Shown: positions 21,990 to 30,168 of the stretch, one piece after another
Layout: each line of letters opens with the position of its first letter
Numbering within the stretch: the stretch's first letter is position 1
Assembly (NCBI GenBank): GCA_018056545.1
Contig: JAGPFL010000005.1
Coordinates: 1-46,356, forward strand
Reading direction: 5' to 3'
Origin: Syntrophobacterales bacterium
GTDB lineage: Bacteria; Desulfobacterota; Syntrophia; Syntrophales; UBA8958
Length of the DNA: 46,356 bases
The notes under the pieces: model-generated
Told to the model about the DNA's origin: nothing
Seen by the model: the letters and a program-made list of their open reading frames with translations, nothing else
The model's database searches: none
Program-made: the position numbers and the translations under genes

Positions 21990-23408
21990 ATGAAGATCCC
22001 GGATAGTTCCTTCGCCAACATTTATAAAGGGATGGCCCTCATCGCCGACCCGATCCACCAGTATGCCTGTTTCACCGTGCCGACGGACAAGGGGGGAGAG
22101 GAGAAAACAGAGAAGGATCTCATCGATTCCCCCTGGCTCCAGCGGCTCCGCCGGATATACCAGTTGCAGAGCGCCCGCTGGGTCTATCCGGCGGCGGAGC
22201 ATACCCGTTTTCAACATTCCCTGGGGACCATGCACGTGGCGGGAGAGTTCGCCCGTTCCCTCTATCCCAGCCTCCGGGAAGTGTGCGCGGACCTCCCTTC
22301 GGAAAGATACGTGGAGGAGCTCCTGCGCCTTGCCGGTCTCCTCCACGATGTGGGACACGGCCCCTACGGTCATTTCTTCGACGATCACTTTCTGGATCGC
22401 TATGGTATCACCCACGAGGACCTGGGCGGGGGGATCATCGTCCGGAAGTTGGGCAAAATCATCAGAAAGATCCGCCGCAGTCCTACAGGACCCTTCGCCC
22501 CGGGAGAGGAACTGGAACCCCGGCATGTGGCCTATCTCATCAAGATGCCCGGGGACGGACGGGAGGCGGCGCCCCGTTGGCTGTCCCTTCTCCGCCAGCT
22601 CTTTTCCGGGATCTACACCGTGGACAATCTCGACTACGTCCAGCGGGACGCCTTCATGACCGGCGTGTCCCTGGACATGGTGGATATCGCCCGGATTCGC
22701 TACTACAGCTTCTTCACCGACGCCGGCCTCACCCTCCACGAAGCGGGACTGTCGGCCCTGCGCCGCTTTCTGAACGCCCGGCTGAACCTGTACGCCAATG
22801 TCTATTTCCACCGCACCACCCGGGCCCTCGATCTCCATCTCCAGGAGATATTCAGGGAAACCATGGAACTGTTGTGCCCCGGTGATCCCCGGGAGGACCT
22901 CGAGTCCTATGGACGCCTCGACGAGTGGCGGCTCTTCGAGACGGTCCGGCGGTGGGCCGACCACGGCGATCTCCGGCGGAAAACGCTGGGCCGGGAGTGG
23001 CAGCGGCTCTACAGTCGTCAGGTGAAGTGGAAGATGTCCTATTCCACGGAGATATCGGTGGAGACGGTCCAAAAGGGGACGAGCTTCGCGGCGGCGGGAG
23101 ATTACGAAGAGCAGGTGCGCCGCCGCCTGCCGAAAGCCCTGCGGAATATACCCCTCCGGGTGGACCTGGCCACCCAGGACCCCCGACCCATCAATCCCAT
23201 GGCGCAGACGGACAAGCGGATCAATGTCTTCAATCCGGCGCTGGGCATCACTTCTCAGGAACCCCTGCGGGATATCTACCGGTTCATTCCCGCCCGGATC
23301 GTCCATTTCCGGGTCTTCACCATGAATCACGCCCATGATCCCGAGGTGGCCGCCGCGGCGGAGAAGGTCCTGGCGAATCCACCCACGCCCTCCCGGACGA
23401 ACATATGA
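21990..23408 (+). CDS. HD-domain phosphohydrolase, SAMHD1-like (putative dNTPase)
   Basis: A 472-aa protein of the HD phosphohydrolase superfamily. The four metal-ligand positions appear intact: H76 in RFQHSLG, H119-D120 in GLLHDVGHGP, and D215 in NLDYVQRD. DPIHQY near residue 20 and the position of the HD block match SAMHD1/YwfO-like proteins, which hydrolyse dNTPs or related nucleotides. The next gene, an NrdD-like ribonucleotide reductase, starts 19 bp downstream, so the pair may act on dNTP pools. A TATAGT at 21975-21980 lies only 10 bp before the ATG, which would give a nearly leaderless message if used; no strong Shine-Dalgarno is present. The substrate is inferred. Confidence 0.85.
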   Translation: MKIPDSSFANIYKGMALIADPIHQYACFTVPTDKGGEEKTEKDLIDSPWLQRLRRIYQLQSARWVYPAAEHTRFQHSLGTMHVAGEFARSLYPSLREVCADLPSERYVEELLRLAGLLHDVGHGPYGHFFDDHFLDRYGITHEDLGGGIIVRKLGKIIRKIRRSPTGPFAPGEELEPRHVAYLIKMPGDGREAAPRWLSLLRQLFSGIYTVDNLDYVQRDAFMTGVSLDMVDIARIRYYSFFTDAGLTLHEAGLSALRRFLNARLNLYANVYFHRTTRALDLHLQEIFRETMELLCPGDPREDLESYGRLDEWRLFETVRRWADHGDLRRKTLGREWQRLYSRQVKWKMSYSTEISVETVQKGTSFAAAGDYEEQVRRRLPKALRNIPLRVDLATQDPRPINPMAQTDKRINVFNPALGITSQEPLRDIYRFIPARIVHFRVFTMNHAHDPEVAAAAEKVLANPPTPSRTNI

Positions 23409-23427
23409 ACGTGAAAGGCTGGTGACC

Positions 23428-25482
23428 ATGGCGCCTCCGGAAACGACCGATATGACCCTTTTTGTCCGCTCCAAGGGAGAGGAGGTGGACCGCTGGAACC
23501 GGCGGCGCATCGTGGACGCCCTTATCCGGGAGACGGGCATCGACGCCGAAACGGCGGAGGCGGTGAGCCGGGAGGTGGAAAAGGGGTTGTTTGCCTCGGG
23601 GATTTCGGCGCTTACCACCTCCCTGATCCGGGAGCTGGTGGATGCGAAACTCGTGGAGCGGGGAATGGAGAAGGCCCGCCGGATGCATGCCCGCCTCGGT
23701 TTCCCCCTCTATGACGTGGATCAGCTCATCCTCCACCGCAACAAGGAGGACGCCAATGTGCCGCACGGACCGGAAGGAACGAATCTCGTCCTGGCCCAGG
23801 GGATCAAGCGGGAATACGCCCTGAACAGCGTCTTCTCCCAGGAGGTGGGTGACGCCCATATTACGGGGGATTTCCATATCCACGGTCTGGGATGTATCGA
23901 CCGTCCCTTTGCCTGCTGCCAGAATCTGGAGTACCTGAAGAAATTCGGCCTGAACCTTCCCCGCTCGCTGACCGTGGCCAAACCCGCCAAGCACGCCGAG
24001 GTACTCCTGGCCCATATGGTGCGTTTCGGTGCCATCCTCCAGGGTTATTTTGCGGGCATCATCTGCTGGGACTTCGTCAACCTCTCCTTCGCCCCTTATC
24101 TAACCGGTATGTCCGACCGGGAGGTGCGGCAGTTTGCCCAGATGCTCGTCTATGAATTCTCACAGCTTACGGCGGCCCGGGGTGGGCAGGCCATGTTCAC
24201 CGACATCCATCTCTATTGGGAAGTCCCCACCACCCTACGGGAACTTCCCATGATCGGACCGGCAGGGGAAAGCATGGGGAGGCCCTGCGGGGATTATGAA
24301 AAGGAAGGCCAGCGGCTGGCCTGGGCGCTGGGCGACGTTTTCAAAAAGGGAGACGGTACGGGCAGACCCTTCATCTTTCCCCGGCCGGTGGTGCATCTCA
24401 CGCCGCGTTTTTTTGCCACCCCCGGTCACGAGGACTTCCTCCTCCATTTCTGTGAAGTTGCCGCCGACAAAGGCAATCCCTGTTTCGTCCTGGAGAGGGA
24501 AGGTGCGGCGTGCGGAAACGCTTTTGGGGTTTCGCCGTGTCGGGAGGACGGCGCCGCGCCCTGGCGTCAACGCCAGGCCGCCGTCCAGAATATCAGCATC
24601 AATCTTCCCCGCCTGGGTTACCGGGCGGCGGGCGACACGGGACGGCTTTTTTCCGGACTGGCGGCCCTGGTGGACCTTGCCGTCCAGGCCCATGATCAGA
24701 AGCGCGTCTTTATGGAAAGACTGCTTTCCTATGGCGATCAGGGGCCCCTGTCCGTCCTGGCCATGAATCATGACGGCGTTCCCTACCTGCGCCGGGAGCT
24801 GTCGTCCTATCTTTTGGGAATGGTGGGCTTGAACGAACTGGTGCAGGTCCACACAGGGCAGCCCCTCCACACTTCCCCGGAGTCCCGGGCCTTCGGTCGC
24901 CGGGTGATCGAGTTCATGGCGCAGCAGGTTGCGTCCCTGAGCGCCCGTTACGGCATGAACATCGTTCTGGACCAGCCCCACGCCGAAACGACGGCCCATC
25001 GTTTCGCCCGTCTGGATCTCCGTTATTTTTCCCCCCCGGCCGGGCGACATGTCCAGGGCAATATTGCCGACGGTGCCCTTTACTATACGAATTCCACGCA
25101 TTTTTCCGTTGCCGCACCTCTGACCCCGGCGGAACTTATCAGGGAAGAGGGAAACCTCCATCCCCTGATCGGGGGCAACGCCGCCACCCAGATCTGGTTG
25201 GGGGAAACGTTGCCGAACGCCGCTGATTTAAGACGTTTGCTGATCTGGGCTTACCGGGAGACAACCTGCCGCCAGATCATCTTTTCTCCCGATTTCACTT
25301 CCTGCCGAGAATGCGGCCGGACCCACCGGGGACGTAAACATGCCTGCGATGCCTGCGCCTCGACCGATATGGAAGGAATCGCCAAGATAACCCAGTATTA
25401 CAGTCGGGTTTCGGACTGGAACAAGGGGAAACTCGCCGAGCTCAAGGATCGCCGCCGCCACGAGAGTTTCGATCTTCCGTAG
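23428..25482 (+). CDS. nrdD: Anaerobic ribonucleoside-triphosphate reductase (NrdD)-like protein with Gln at the glycyl-radical position
   Basis: A 684-aa protein. Residues about 8-90 form an ATP-cone (VRSKGEEVDRWNRRRIVDAL), and the rest matches class III NrdD. It has GDFHIHGLGCIDRPFACC with the thiyl-site cysteine region, GALYYTNSTHF late in the barrel, and a C-terminal zinc site with CREC and CDAC. In class III enzymes the motif R-[VI]-[CT/TV]-G-Y follows the zinc site and carries the radical glycine. Here, at the expected distance, the sequence is KITQYYSRVSDWN, with Gln656 (codon CAG, 25393-25395) in place of glycine. GGN to CAG needs at least two base changes, so a single base error does not explain it. 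No activase gene (nrdG) follows. It may be radical-dead, rescued in trans, or a nucleotide-binding partner of the upstream HD protein. Confidence 0.85.
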   Translation: MAPPETTDMTLFVRSKGEEVDRWNRRRIVDALIRETGIDAETAEAVSREVEKGLFASGISALTTSLIRELVDAKLVERGMEKARRMHARLGFPLYDVDQLILHRNKEDANVPHGPEGTNLVLAQGIKREYALNSVFSQEVGDAHITGDFHIHGLGCIDRPFACCQNLEYLKKFGLNLPRSLTVAKPAKHAEVLLAHMVRFGAILQGYFAGIICWDFVNLSFAPYLTGMSDREVRQFAQMLVYEFSQLTAARGGQAMFTDIHLYWEVPTTLRELPMIGPAGESMGRPCGDYEKEGQRLAWALGDVFKKGDGTGRPFIFPRPVVHLTPRFFATPGHEDFLLHFCEVAADKGNPCFVLEREGAACGNAFGVSPCREDGAAPWRQRQAAVQNISINLPRLGYRAAGDTGRLFSGLAALVDLAVQAHDQKRVFMERLLSYGDQGPLSVLAMNHDGVPYLRRELSSYLLGMVGLNELVQVHTGQPLHTSPESRAFGRRVIEFMAQQVASLSARYGMNIVLDQPHAETTAHRFARLDLRYFSPPAGRHVQGNIADGALYYTNSTHFSVAAPLTPAELIREEGNLHPLIGGNAATQIWLGETLPNAADLRRLLIWAYRETTCRQIIFSPDFTSCRECGRTHRGRKHACDACASTDMEGIAKITQYYSRVSDWNKGKLAELKDRRRHESFDLP

Positions 25483-25815: not shown

Positions 25816-25844
25816 AGCCGCGCTTTGTGAGGGTCAGAGGAGAT

Positions 25845-26429
25845 ATGGAAGACATCATCGTCAAGATCTTCAGGGACAGCAGCCGGCTCAAGGAGAGTTT
25901 CGTCAACGACAATCTTGCCGCCATCGTCCGGATCGTTGAGGTGATGACCGCTGTCCTCAAGGCGGGGAACAAGATCATGATCTTCGGCAACGGCGGCAGC
26001 GCTGCGGATGCCCAGCATCTGGCCGGGGAGTTCATCAACCGGTTTCTCATCGAGCGGCCGCCTCTGCCTGCCATCGCCCTGAGCACCGATACCTCTGTGA
26101 TAACAAGCATTGGGAACGATTATGATTTTTCCGAGATCTTCAGCAAACAGATCCGGGCCTTGGGACAGACGGGCGACTTGGCTTGGGGGATCAGCACCAG
26201 CGGGAGGTCGCGTAATGTTTTCAAAGGACTGGAACAGGCAAAGAGGATGGGACTTATAACATTTGCTCTTACGGGCAAGGACGGCGGTGACATCGCCGGG
26301 ATAGCCGATTACTGTCTCAATGTGGCATCGGACAGTACCCCCCGTATCCAGGAGGTGCACATAACCCTGGGGCATGTCCTGTGTCAGATGATCGACCTCA
26401 AGCTCTTTCAGAGGCCCGATATGAAATGA
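25845..26429 (+). CDS. gmhA: D-sedoheptulose-7-phosphate isomerase / phosphoheptose isomerase
   Basis: A 194-aa SIS-domain protein of full family length. GNGGSAADAQHLAGE and LSTDTSVITSIGND are the sugar-phosphate-binding blocks, ISTSGRSRNV is the second serine-rich loop, and TPRIQEVHITLGH carries the catalytic Glu and His of GmhA. The enzyme converts sedoheptulose 7-phosphate to D-glycero-D-manno-heptose 7-phosphate, the first step to ADP-heptose for LPS inner core, so the host has a Gram-negative envelope. AGAGGAGAT precedes ATG 25845. It is the first gene after a strong promoter, with grpE 29 bp downstream, an unusual coupling of LPS and chaperone genes. Confidence 0.92.
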   Translation: MEDIIVKIFRDSSRLKESFVNDNLAAIVRIVEVMTAVLKAGNKIMIFGNGGSAADAQHLAGEFINRFLIERPPLPAIALSTDTSVITSIGNDYDFSEIFSKQIRALGQTGDLAWGISTSGRSRNVFKGLEQAKRMGLITFALTGKDGGDIAGIADYCLNVASDSTPRIQEVHITLGHVLCQMIDLKLFQRPDMK

Positions 26430-26458
26430 AAAAAATAATGCGACAGGCGTGAACGGAT

Positions 26459-27070
26459 ATGGTTAAAAAGACAAAGAAAGAAACAACAGAACATCAGGAA
26501 TCCCGACCGGAGGGTGTCCGGGAAGATGAAAAGGAAGCGCCCGTCCAAGGGCAAACGTCACCGACCGCCGCCTCCCTGCCGTCCCGGGAGGAGCTGAAGC
26601 GGGCACTGGAGGAAAAGACCAAGGAATGCGCGGAAAATTACGATAAATACGTCCGCGCCGTGGCGGAGCTGGAGAACTACAAGAAACGGGCGGTCAAGGA
26701 AAAGGCCGAGGCCATCAAATACGGCAACGAAACCCTGATCCGCGATCTGCTCCCTTTGGTGGACAGCCTGGAGCGGGCCCTGAAGCATGCCGAAAGCTCC
26801 AATGATTTCGAGTCATTCAAGAAGGGTTTGGGGCTGCTCCAGGAGCAACTCCTCTGTTCTTTGGGCAAGCACGGCGTGGAGGCCATCGATTGCGCCCGCA
26901 AGGCCTTCGATCCCCACTATCATGAGGCCCTGATGCAGGTGGTGAGCGCCGAACACGAGCATAATCAGGTAGTTGACGAGCTGGAGAAGGGGTATCTATT
27001 GAACGGCAGACTGCTGAGACCCGCCAAGGTATCCGTGTGTAAACGGCCCGACGACGGCGGGCAATGTTAA
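26459..27070 (+). CDS. grpE: GrpE nucleotide-exchange factor
   Basis: A 203-aa protein. A charged, disordered N-terminus (1-about 45) leads to the long coiled coil (about 45-100, with AELENYKKR, the GrpE signature region) and the beta domain (FDPHYHEALMQV, then GYLLNGRLLRPAKVSV). GrpE releases ADP from DnaK. It lies 44 bp upstream of dnaK and 29 bp after gmhA, so all three are probably one transcript. No hrcA or dnaJ is present in the window. Confidence 0.96.
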   Translation: MVKKTKKETTEHQESRPEGVREDEKEAPVQGQTSPTAASLPSREELKRALEEKTKECAENYDKYVRAVAELENYKKRAVKEKAEAIKYGNETLIRDLLPLVDSLERALKHAESSNDFESFKKGLGLLQEQLLCSLGKHGVEAIDCARKAFDPHYHEALMQVVSAEHEHNQVVDELEKGYLLNGRLLRPAKVSVCKRPDDGGQC

Positions 27071-27114
27071 AAGAGACAAAGTCCTGAATCAGGATAGAAG
27101 GAGGATAAGATAAA

Positions 27115-29040
27115 ATGGGAAAGATCATCGGGATTGACTTGGGAACCACCAATTCGTGCGTAGCGGTCATGGAAGGCGGTGACCCGGTGGTGATTGCGAA
27201 TCAGGAGGGCAACCGGACGACCCCGTCCGTGGTGGCCTTCACCGACAGCGGTGAAAGGCTGGTCGGTCAGGTCGCCAGACGCCAGGCCATCACTAACTCG
27301 GAGAATACGGTTTATGCCGTCAAGAGGCTCATCGGGAGAAAATTCAGTTCCCGGGAAGTGCAGTACGACAAGGGCATCTGCTCCTACCGGATAACCGAGG
27401 CGGCGAACGGAGACGCCCAGGTGACGGTCCGGGACCGGAATTACAGCCCCGCGGAAATATCATCGATGATACTGGCGAAGATGAAACAGACCGCGGAGGA
27501 TTACCTGGGCGAAAAGGTCACCGACGCCGTGATCACCGTCCCGGCTTACTTCAACGATTCCCAGCGGCAGGCCACCAAGGACGCCGGGCGGATCGCCGGA
27601 CTGAACGTCCGCCGGATCATCAACGAGCCTACGGCGGCGGCCCTGGCCTATGGCCTGGACAAGAAAAAGGAAGGAAAGATCGCCGTTTTCGACCTCGGCG
27701 GCGGGACCTTCGATATCTCCATCCTGGAGATCGGCGACGGTGTTTTCGAGGTGAAGTCCACCAACGGCGACACCCATCTGGGCGGCGAGGACTTCGATCA
27801 GCGCCTTATCGATTTTCTGGCCACGGAATTCAAGAAGGACCAGGGGATCGACATCCGGGGGGACCGGATGGCCCTCCAGCGCCTCAAGGAGGCGGCCGAG
27901 AAGGCCAAGATCGAGCTTTCCACGGCCATGGAGACGGATATCAACCTGCCTTTCATCACCGCCGACGCCTCGGGACCCAAGCATATGAACATCAAGCTGA
28001 CCCGGGCCAAACTGGAAGGTCTGGTGGAGGATTTGATCGCCAAGGTGGAGGGTCCTTGTCGGACGGCCCTCAAGGACGCCAATCTGTCTCCCCAGGATAT
28101 CAACGAGGTAATCCTGGTGGGTGGTATGACCCGTATGCCCCGGGTGCAGCAGAAGGTCAAGGAGATCTTCGGCAAGGAGCCCAGCAAGGGGGTCAACCCC
28201 GACGAGGTGGTGGCGGTGGGCGCTGCCATCCAGGGCGGCGTTCTCACCGGCGACGTTAAGGATGTGCTCCTTCTCGACGTGACGCCCCTGTCCCTGGGGA
28301 TTGAGACCCTGGGCGGCGTCATGACCAAGTTGATCGAGAAGAACACCACCATCCCCACCCGGAAGAGTCAGATCTTCTCCACGGCGGCGGACAATCAGCC
28401 GGCGGTGAGCATCCATGTCCTCCAGGGTGAACGTCCTATGGCGGCGGACAACCGCACCCTGGGCCGTTTCGAGCTTGTCGGCATTCCCCCGGCACCCCGG
28501 GGTCTCCCCCAGATCGAGGTGACCTTCGACATCGACGCCAACGGCATTGTCCATGTCTCGGCGAAGGATCTGGGGACGGGTAAGGAACAGAGCATCAAGA
28601 TCACCGCCTCCAGCGGTCTGACGGAAGAGGAAATTCAGCGGCTCGTCAAGGATGCCGACGCCCATGCCGAAGAGGATCGGCGGAAACGCGATCTCGTCGA
28701 GGCCCGGAACCATGCCGACGCCTTTGTTTACAGTGTGGAGAAAAACATCAAGGAATTCGGCGACAAGATCGACGCCGCCGAGAAGGCCCGGATCGAGGAG
28801 GCCATCGCCAAGGTCAAGAAGGCCATCGAGGGCGACGATATCGAGGCCATCAAGCGGACACAGGAAGAGCTGACCACCGCCTCCCACAAGCTGGCCGAGG
28901 CCATGTATGCCAAGACGGCTGGGCAGCAGGCGGGCGCCGGGGCTGCCGGCGCCGGCGCGGCCGGTGCGGGAGCGGGAGCCCAGGCGGGCGGTAAGAAGGA
29001 CGACGACGTTGTGGATGCCGATTTCGAAGAGGTGAAATAA
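27115..29040 (+). CDS. dnaK: Chaperone DnaK (Hsp70)
   Basis: A complete 641-aa Hsp70. [11 protein letters not shown] at the N-terminus, [31 protein letters not shown] and the substrate-binding start [17 protein letters not shown] are the standard signatures, and the C-terminus ends in the EEVK-like DADFEEVK that docks co-chaperones. A Gly/Ala-rich linker (AGAGAAGAG type) of about 30 residues precedes that tail. AGAAGGAGG at 27098-27106 precedes ATG 27115. DnaK folds and protects proteins with GrpE, encoded just upstream. Transcription most likely ends at the hairpin at 29238. Confidence 0.98.
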
Positions 29041-29237
29041 TCCTCCACGCCTTCCCCGGACGTGCACCGCGCAATGGTGATGGAGCATTCCGGCATGGGG
29101 CGAAGCGAGACAAACTCACCCGGAGGGCGAACAAGATCTCGGGGACGAGGGGTGACGCTCCAAAAGGAAAGGCGAGAAGCCTTCATCCTCCCTTTCCCGA
29201 AGAGATGCAGCAGGTGAGCGGCGGCATAAATCTTTGG
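29041..29237. other. 3' intergenic region after dnaK
   Basis: About 200 bp between the dnaK stop and its terminator with no reading frame or motif I can support. Confidence 0.4.
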
Positions 29238-29274
29238 ACCCGGAAGTTTCTTGACAAACTTCCGGGTCTTTGTA
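29238..29274 (+). terminator. Rho-independent terminator after dnaK
   Basis: A perfect 12-bp stem, ACCCGGAAGTTT (29238-29249) with AAACTTCCGGGT (29256-29267), encloses a 6-nt loop and is followed by CTTTGTATT. It separates dnaK from surE. Confidence 0.85.
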
Positions 29275-29370
29275 TTAGGGAAACGGAGATTGTGAAAAGC
29301 GGTTTGACAGCCCGGCGGGCTATTTCCCGTCACCCGAGGGGAGCCGACGGTGGGGCATGAGGTAGGAGCG

Positions 29371-30168
29371 ATGCGTTTTCTTTTGACCAACGACGACGGT
29401 ATCTATGCCAAGGGGCTGGCGTCTCTGTATCAGGAGCTTTCCCGGGATGCCGAATGCCTGGTGGTGGCCCCGGAGATAGAGCAGAGCGCCGTCGGGCATG
29501 CCATCACCCTTTTTCGTCCCCTCATGGTCCGGGAGGCCAGAAAGAACGGCGCCGCCCTCGGTTATGCCGTGGCGGGCACCCCGGCGGACTGTGTGAAACT
29601 GGGGATCCGGGAACTGGCCGGCGGCCCTGTGGACCTTGTCGTTTCCGGCATCAACCGGGGGGCCAACGTGGGAGTGAATGTCCTTTACTCGGGGACCGTT
29701 TCGGCAGCCACGGAAGCGGTCATTTTGGGGGTTCCCTCCCTGGCGGTTTCCCTGGACACCCACCGGGAGGCGGATTTCGCCTTTGCCGCCCGGTTCGCCC
29801 GGAAGATGGCGGCGTTCATCCTGTCCAACCCCTGGCCGGGTACGGCGGTAAACGTCAACATCCCCGCCCTTCCGGAGGAGGAGATCAAGGGGGTGGTGGT
29901 GGTCAAGCAGGGGCGGACGCGCCTTCTGGAGAGCTTCGAGCGACGGGTGGATCCCCGGGAAAACATCTATTACTGGCTGGCCGGGGAGACGCAACTGGCC
30001 GCCGACGAATCCCCGGACTCCGACGCCTGTGCCCTACGCCGGGGGTACATCACCGTCACCCCCATCCATTCCGACCTGACCCGTTACGAGCTGCTGGAGG
30101 AATTCAGCGCCCGGGTGCAAGACTTCCGGGAAGGACTCTTCGGTTCCCGCCGCACAAAAAAGAAGTAA
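29371..30168 (+). CDS. surE: 5'/3'-nucleotidase SurE
   Basis: A 265-aa protein of typical SurE length. It opens MRFLLTNDDGIYAKG, whose Asp-Asp pair binds the divalent metal, followed by VVAPEIEQSAVGHAIT (serine and acidic ligands) and VSGINRGANVG (Asn ligand region). YSGTVSAATEA is also conserved. SurE dephosphorylates nucleoside 5' and 3' monophosphates and is linked to stationary-phase survival. ATG 29371 is chosen because homology begins there and TAGGAGCG precedes it. The gene is isolated between the dnaK terminator and a repeat region; the next gene is convergent. Confidence 0.95.
   Translation: MRFLLTNDDGIYAKGLASLYQELSRDAECLVVAPEIEQSAVGHAITLFRPLMVREARKNGAALGYAVAGTPADCVKLGIRELAGGPVDLVVSGINRGANVGVNVLYSGTVSAATEAVILGVPSLAVSLDTHREADFAFAARFARKMAAFILSNPWPGTAVNVNIPALPEEEIKGVVVVKQGRTRLLESFERRVDPRENIYYWLAGETQLAADESPDSDACALRRGYITVTPIHSDLTRYELLEEFSARVQDFREGLFGSRRTKKK

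Follow-up and report, generated by a model that had tools for sequence, protein, structure and literature searches.

In one order of anaerobic bacteria, a ribonucleotide reductase (RNR) of class III appears to have become a protein without radical chemistry. The window, by which we mean the whole 46,356-nucleotide stretch of DNA analyzed here, carries an NrdD-like gene. Judged from this sequence and those of its orthologs, three catalytic elements (the radical glycine, the cysteine of beta-strand 1, and the finger-loop motif) are lost together in one clade of that order. The gene stands in operon-like linkage to a gene encoding an HD-domain protein with an intact catalytic site, and linkage to nrdG is lost. 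The best explanation, to which we give about an even chance of being right, is that a class III RNR turned into a pseudoenzyme and was kept as a nucleotide-responsive protein, most likely working with the HD deoxynucleoside triphosphate (dNTP) triphosphohydrolase encoded upstream.

Gene and domain organization

The NrdD-like gene, its parts, and its upstream neighbor were placed in the window as follows.

21990–23408, forward strand: SAMHD1/EF1143-like HD-domain phosphohydrolase, 472 aa (PF01966 and PF19276), the predicted partner
23428–25482, forward strand: NrdD-like pseudoenzyme, 684 aa (PF13597, TIGR02487, AF2 model)
23464–23670, forward strand: ATP-cone domain, residues ~13–81 (PF03477)
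23911–23913, forward strand: Ala162 at the position of the beta-strand-1 active-site Cys (ortholog alignment)
24499–24561, forward strand: degenerated finger-loop/thiyl-cysteine region, residues 358–378 (ISECCRLSF in ordinary members)
25303–25356, forward strand: zinc site, four Cys, intact (CCCC in 118 of 118 orthologs)
25393–25395, forward strand: Gln656 (CAG) at the glycyl-radical position (window sequence, ortholog alignment)

The open frame of the NrdD-like gene spans positions 23335–25482; the ATG at 23428 was chosen as the start from the ortholog alignment, and the stop codon ends at 25482. From the N- to the C-terminus, the protein comprises an ATP-cone, an RNR barrel, and a C-terminal domain of the zinc/glycyl-radical type that lacks the glycine. 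In profile searches, PF13597 matched over its full length (positions 1–562, 369 bits), and the score for TIGR02487, the NCBI equivalog of NrdD, was 319 bits, below the cut-off of 326.35. The AF2 model (pLDDT 75.6) matched the class III RNR structures 9dca, 8p2s, 4coj, and 1hk8, and its top Foldseek matches were class III RNRs. By homology, the protein is a member of the class III RNR family, and three tested defining features of a functional class III RNR are missing from it. It shares with class III NrdDs (PF13597, TIGR02487), for which structures have been solved from P. copri, T. maritima, phage T4, and S. thermophilus, homology over the whole length, the barrel fold, the ATP-cone, the NxN flap, the four-Cys zinc domain, and the WN-GK tail. 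It differs from them in the absence of the radical Gly and the beta-1 Cys, in the degenerate finger loop, and in having an HD gene rather than nrdG as a neighbor.

An initial annotation of this DNA had reported a glutamine at the radical position, and this was borne out: Gln656 lies in the context KITQYYS, exactly 13 residues past the last zinc cysteine (C643), as had been stated. The distance to the conserved WN, given there as 11 residues, is in fact eight, and it is likewise eight in Gly-bearing relatives. The zinc cysteines (626, 629, 640, and 643) are intact, and the ATP-cone is present, as had been claimed, although the latter is detectable only as a weak match in the window protein (PF03477, E = 0.008); the domain was matched in 26 of 26 orthologs, at best with 1.6e-5. 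The further claim of an intact cysteine region was wrong. The beta-1 motif reads DRPFACCQ versus DRPYCSGQ in ordinary members, with Ala162 in place of the Cys, and the finger-loop sequence (LEREGAACGNAFGVSPCRED) is degenerate compared with ISECCRLSF.

Catalytic and non-catalytic residues across the orthologs

Orthologs of the NrdD-like protein were found in 53 of the 60 genomes related to that of the window, most of which also encode a second NrdD that is ~27% identical. The genome scan for NrdD-like loci yielded 80 named loci. Across a set of 118 distinct orthologs, the residue at the radical position was Gly (63), Gln (33), Lys (15), Arg (4), Leu (1), Asn (1), or Pro (1). The 55 orthologs without the radical Gly, 33 sharing the Gln of the window protein and 22 with K, R, L, N, or P, all come from the window's order and form one clade. 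Lys at this position characterizes Smithella-type records; Arg characterizes family f19, including the genome G044, whose non-Gly ortholog lies on a single contig of 3179300 bases. The initial annotation had also considered a radical Gly elsewhere in the tail. The nearby Gly of EGIAR is no candidate, being not conserved in the clade (DSVSR in L022, EKIAR in L014).

Ordinary members outside the order carry the motifs DRPYCSGQ, ISECCRLSF, and RITGYF. The beta-1 Cys is present in 59 of the 63 Gly-bearing members versus none of the 55 non-Gly members, where it is replaced by S, A, N, or G in every case. Within the non-Gly clade, the finger-loop motif varies, contains gaps, or has been deleted; about half of the members still have a Cys at its position. 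By alignment, the beta-1 Cys, the finger-loop Cys, and the radical Gly correspond to Cys171, Cys416, and Gly711 of the P. copri NrdD (PMC11226230). The counterpart of the finger-loop (SCCR) cysteine motif in T. maritima NrdD is Cys329/330, and the activity of that enzyme needs both SCCR cysteines (PMC4493059).

Much of the remaining protein is kept, including most of the residues that contact nucleotides. All four zinc cysteines occur in each of the 118 ortholog rows, and at least 96% of the non-Gly rows retain the second Asn of the NxN flap, Gly252-Gly253-Gln254, Arg395, Glu520, Arg525, Asn555, Tyr657 (directly after the radical position), and WN-GK. Of the 55 non-Gly members, 34 have Asn and 14 have Asp as the first residue of the flap; the window protein has Asp. 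Among the retained elements are some that, in P. copri NrdD, link the state of the ATP-cone to whether the C-terminal domain is ordered; there, dATP or ATP at the ATP-cone switches the order of that domain (PMC11226230).

The clade has also gained near-fixed residues, such as the Cys of GNPCF (45/52 versus 0/57). Together with the substrate-contact residues, which are largely retained, such residues would suit a nucleotide-binding barrel that performs a different, non-radical chemistry on the substrates or products of the HD enzyme. The former catalytic loop, however, is hypervariable and often deleted, and it holds no new conserved catalytic set; we regard a non-radical catalyst as improbable.

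Two features of the open frames were examined and set aside. Several orthologs have in-frame TGA codons that might have encoded selenocysteine; where resolved (L008, L015, L031), these lie 5' of the real start. Very long open frames at L006, L019, and L056 resembled HD–NrdD fusions and are instead two neighboring genes, with different frames and a 1412-nt offset at L019.

Phylogeny and selection

We built a tree of the orthologs without the catalytic columns. The 55 non-Gly rows formed one clade (SH-aLRT 98), indicating a single loss of the Gly, after which the site also changed to K, R, L, N, and P and the finger loop was lost repeatedly. As the Gly loss is one event on the tree, the counts across members given above are not independent. 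Those members of the order that bear the Gly are basal to the non-Gly clade. Six of them (L088, L121, L124, L125, L129, and L130) still have the Gly but lack the beta-1 Cys, the finger-loop Cys, or both; they are intermediate steps toward the pseudoenzyme.

Close non-Gly pairs gave dN/dS values of ~0.07–0.17, which indicates that the protein is maintained and not decaying. Missing catalytic residues in a genome that is 82% complete and assembled in 130 contigs could also point to a relic, a decaying gene, or a sequencing or assembly error. This is hardly credible given the dN/dS values, the full-length open frames, the conserved linkage to the HD gene, and the 55 distinct non-Gly orthologs, one of them in the single-contig genome G044. 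The gene is almost certainly functional and under selection.

Outside the order, genomes with the Gly-type protein have a single full-length NrdD in most or nearly all of those sampled. Within the order, nearly all genomes have a second, canonical NrdD, including those with the basal Gly-bearing members. This difference suggests that the gain of the canonical enzyme freed the resident one.

Other ribonucleotide reductases, activases, and glycyl-radical proteins

The initial annotation had called for a genome search for another nrdD and an nrdG, and this search returned a canonical nrdD–nrdG pair on contig C38 of the window genome (G000), so that NrdG exists in trans. A class I/II-type RNR large subunit was also seen (G000:C63:74736-76136, PF02867 match in two pieces); the window organism thus encodes two further RNRs beside the pseudoenzyme. 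Two genomes of the same genus, G003 and G006 (98–100% complete), keep the Gln-type NrdD and the HD gene. Our genome search found no canonical NrdD in either and no NrdG above the cut-off (best ~54 bits versus 131); both carry a class I/II-type RNR (PF02867).

These genomes bear on a reading in which the NrdD-like protein regulates the canonical NrdD as a subunit of a hetero-oligomer, assembled via the dimer surface that class III enzymes share, or titrates NrdG, and in which its gene adjoins the HD gene only since both serve dNTP balance. A canonical NrdD is indeed encoded in nearly all genomes of the order, and both the barrel and the dimer-type core show conservation. However, the two types of NrdD share just ~27% identity, the gene is not linked to the canonical nrdDG, and G003 and G006 keep the pseudoenzyme and the HD gene with neither canonical NrdD nor NrdG above the cut-off. 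We consider such a role unlikely, if less so than the other alternatives.

Small proteins (~120–165 aa) with an NrdD-type glycyl-radical tail (e.g., DQITRITGYFSKVSGWNKGKKGELVER) were detected at L142:3298-3705 (reverse strand) and L141:2205-2687 (forward strand), and further ones at G087:C28:46615-46707 and G092:C3:8135-8224. Their settings include a WOR-1 genome and a phage-like region. The WOR-1 genome has a tandem NrdD pair (G093:C1:1064485-1068292), with the small NrdD-tail protein encoded elsewhere. Rescue of a glycyl-radical enzyme by a spare part (GrcA/YfiD) is known for pyruvate formate-lyase (PFL), and the small NrdD-tail proteins are candidate spare-part glycyl-radical subunits that would serve NrdD as GrcA serves PFL.

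The PFL precedent and the occurrence of these small proteins in other genomes lend some plausibility to the NrdD-like protein still being a radical enzyme, either through a YfiD/GrcA-like subunit, as the initial annotation had proposed, or through an aminoacyl radical on Gln or Lys. That radicals can reside on other residues is established by the aminoacyl radical enzymes (AAREs), which are homologs of glycyl-radical enzymes with Ala, Ser, or Thr radicals and, like the clade, have a non-Gly residue at the Gly position; they are not NrdDs (Fu et al. 2024; PMC11528403). The AAREs, however, retain the catalytic Cys and rely on dedicated activases (PMC11528403), whereas the clade has Q, K, R, L, N, or P at the radical position, has lost the beta-1 Cys in 55 of 55 members and the finger-loop Cys in about half, and has no adjoining activase, with none above the cut-off anywhere in G003 and G006. 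A conserved new radical residue is unlikely because the site tolerates six different residues. The proposed rescue by a YfiD-like subunit fared no better: the clade has also lost the residues to which the radical would be passed, and a search of seven genomes from the genus and family of the window (G000, G001, G002, G003, G006, G008, and G009), of which G000 is 82% complete, returned no PF01228 glycyl-radical protein. A surviving radical mechanism is therefore very improbable, and the NrdD-like protein very probably has no glycyl-radical reductase activity.

Gene neighborhood and the HD phosphohydrolase

Outside the order, the NrdD gene is typically followed downstream by a gene for a small thiol-redox protein and one for an NrdG-type radical SAM protein. 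Based on neighbor clusters named from sequence, the NrdG-type gene lies downstream in 34 outside loci versus 0 non-Gly loci; the initial annotation was correct that no nrdG adjoins the NrdD-like gene of the window. There, the HD gene ends 19 nt upstream of the NrdD-like start on the same strand. An HD gene immediately upstream on the same strand was found at 48 of 55 non-Gly loci, 10 of 18 Gly-bearing loci of the order, and 0 of 45 outside loci (22 of 26 non-Gly loci in a smaller scored set), and the distance between the two genes in the order is usually <200 bp. Among the seven non-Gly loci without an upstream HD gene, four are Arg-type, and L039 and L049 lie at the edge of the examined sequence. 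The flanks beyond the pair vary, with the next most common neighbor present in only nine non-Gly loci.

The HD protein matched 2hek, the E. faecalis HD protein, and SAMHD1 in profile searches, and its AF2 model (pLDDT 79.7) matched SAMHD1 and the E. faecalis HD dNTPase. The catalytic His/Asp motifs HSLG, LLHDVGHGP, and DNLDYVQRD are invariant across 60 orthologs. The upstream protein thus resembles the SAMHD1 and E. faecalis EF1143-type HD dNTPases in its fold and invariant catalytic His/Asp residues, and it is predicted to have dNTP triphosphohydrolase activity.

Orthologs of the HD protein were found in 101 of the 119 genomes sampled in the class, all from the window's order. Outside the order, orthologs occur away from NrdD in G077 and G087, which indicates that the HD enzyme can act alone. 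The pairing is broken in both directions: in family f19 (Arg-type; G044, G028, G055; L136:5328-7523), the pseudoenzyme is present and no HD ortholog was found in the genomes, and in G010 and G039 the HD gene is present and the pseudoenzyme absent. Gene adjacency is not proof of an interaction, and these exceptions are the weak point of the argument; a functional link between the two proteins is nonetheless likely.

Anti-phage defense was considered as a role for the pair and is not favored. PADLOC gave nothing for the NrdD-like protein and only a weak dGTPase match for the HD protein. A further count against it is that the pair occurs in most genomes of the order and is under purifying selection.

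Downstream of the NrdD-like gene, positions 25827–30168 of the window hold look-alikes of gmhA, grpE, dnaK, and surE, named from sequence. The same chain also follows the NrdD-like gene at some Gln-type and Gly-bearing loci of the order.

Proposed role and significance

One of the two meanings proposed in the initial annotation was a paralog that is radical-dead and senses nucleotides. This fits the joint loss of the three elements, the persistence of the ATP-cone, NxN flap, and zinc domain under purifying selection, the second NrdD, and the HD neighbor; the sensing half is something we infer. In the pseudoenzyme we favor, ATP or dATP would still bind at the ATP-cone, and nucleotides would still bind at the specificity site and the former active site. 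The ordering and disordering of the C-terminal domain driven by ATP/dATP, as in P. copri NrdD, would then control the HD enzyme through direct contact, and a former maker of dNTPs would report the dNTP state to their destroyer. Direct allosteric control of the HD dNTPase is possible, and we place it somewhat short of an even chance. Similarly tentative is the full scenario. In it, a second NrdD was acquired and took the place of the resident one, which gave up its radical chemistry and was remodeled into an allosteric sensor subunit for a SAMHD1-like dNTPase. An ATP/dATP switch that formerly restrained dNTP synthesis would now govern the destruction of dNTPs across the order.

Known SAMHD1/EF1143-type dNTPases are regulated by nucleotides bound to themselves, and we know of none with an RNR-derived partner. 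The betaherpesvirus RNR large subunits M45 and UL45 are catalytically dead and have gained another role. They are a precedent for a dead RNR large subunit with a new role, and they differ in being class I and viral, in having a different function, and in being unrelated to the clade. In the literature we searched, which took in only a minority of subscription journals, we found neither a class III RNR described as radical-dead nor an HD dNTPase with a partner derived from an RNR. A published survey of AAREs reported only Gly-encoding class III RNRs (PMC11528403), and the clade adds a non-Gly case to that statement.

RNRs are usually seen as indispensable, and the radical Gly and Cys can be read from sequence. 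Copies of the clade in dozens of genomes would easily be mistaken for "anaerobic ribonucleoside-triphosphate reductase", and counts of NrdD genes are unsafe as evidence of anaerobic dNTP synthesis in syntrophs. In this clade, the chemistry appears to be lost and the allosteric parts kept, and the change is tied to a swap of partner from an activase to a predicted dNTP hydrolase. If the sensor role is true, the pair would represent a new form of control over the dNTP pool and a natural split of RNR allostery from catalysis, with Gly-bearing intermediates still extant.
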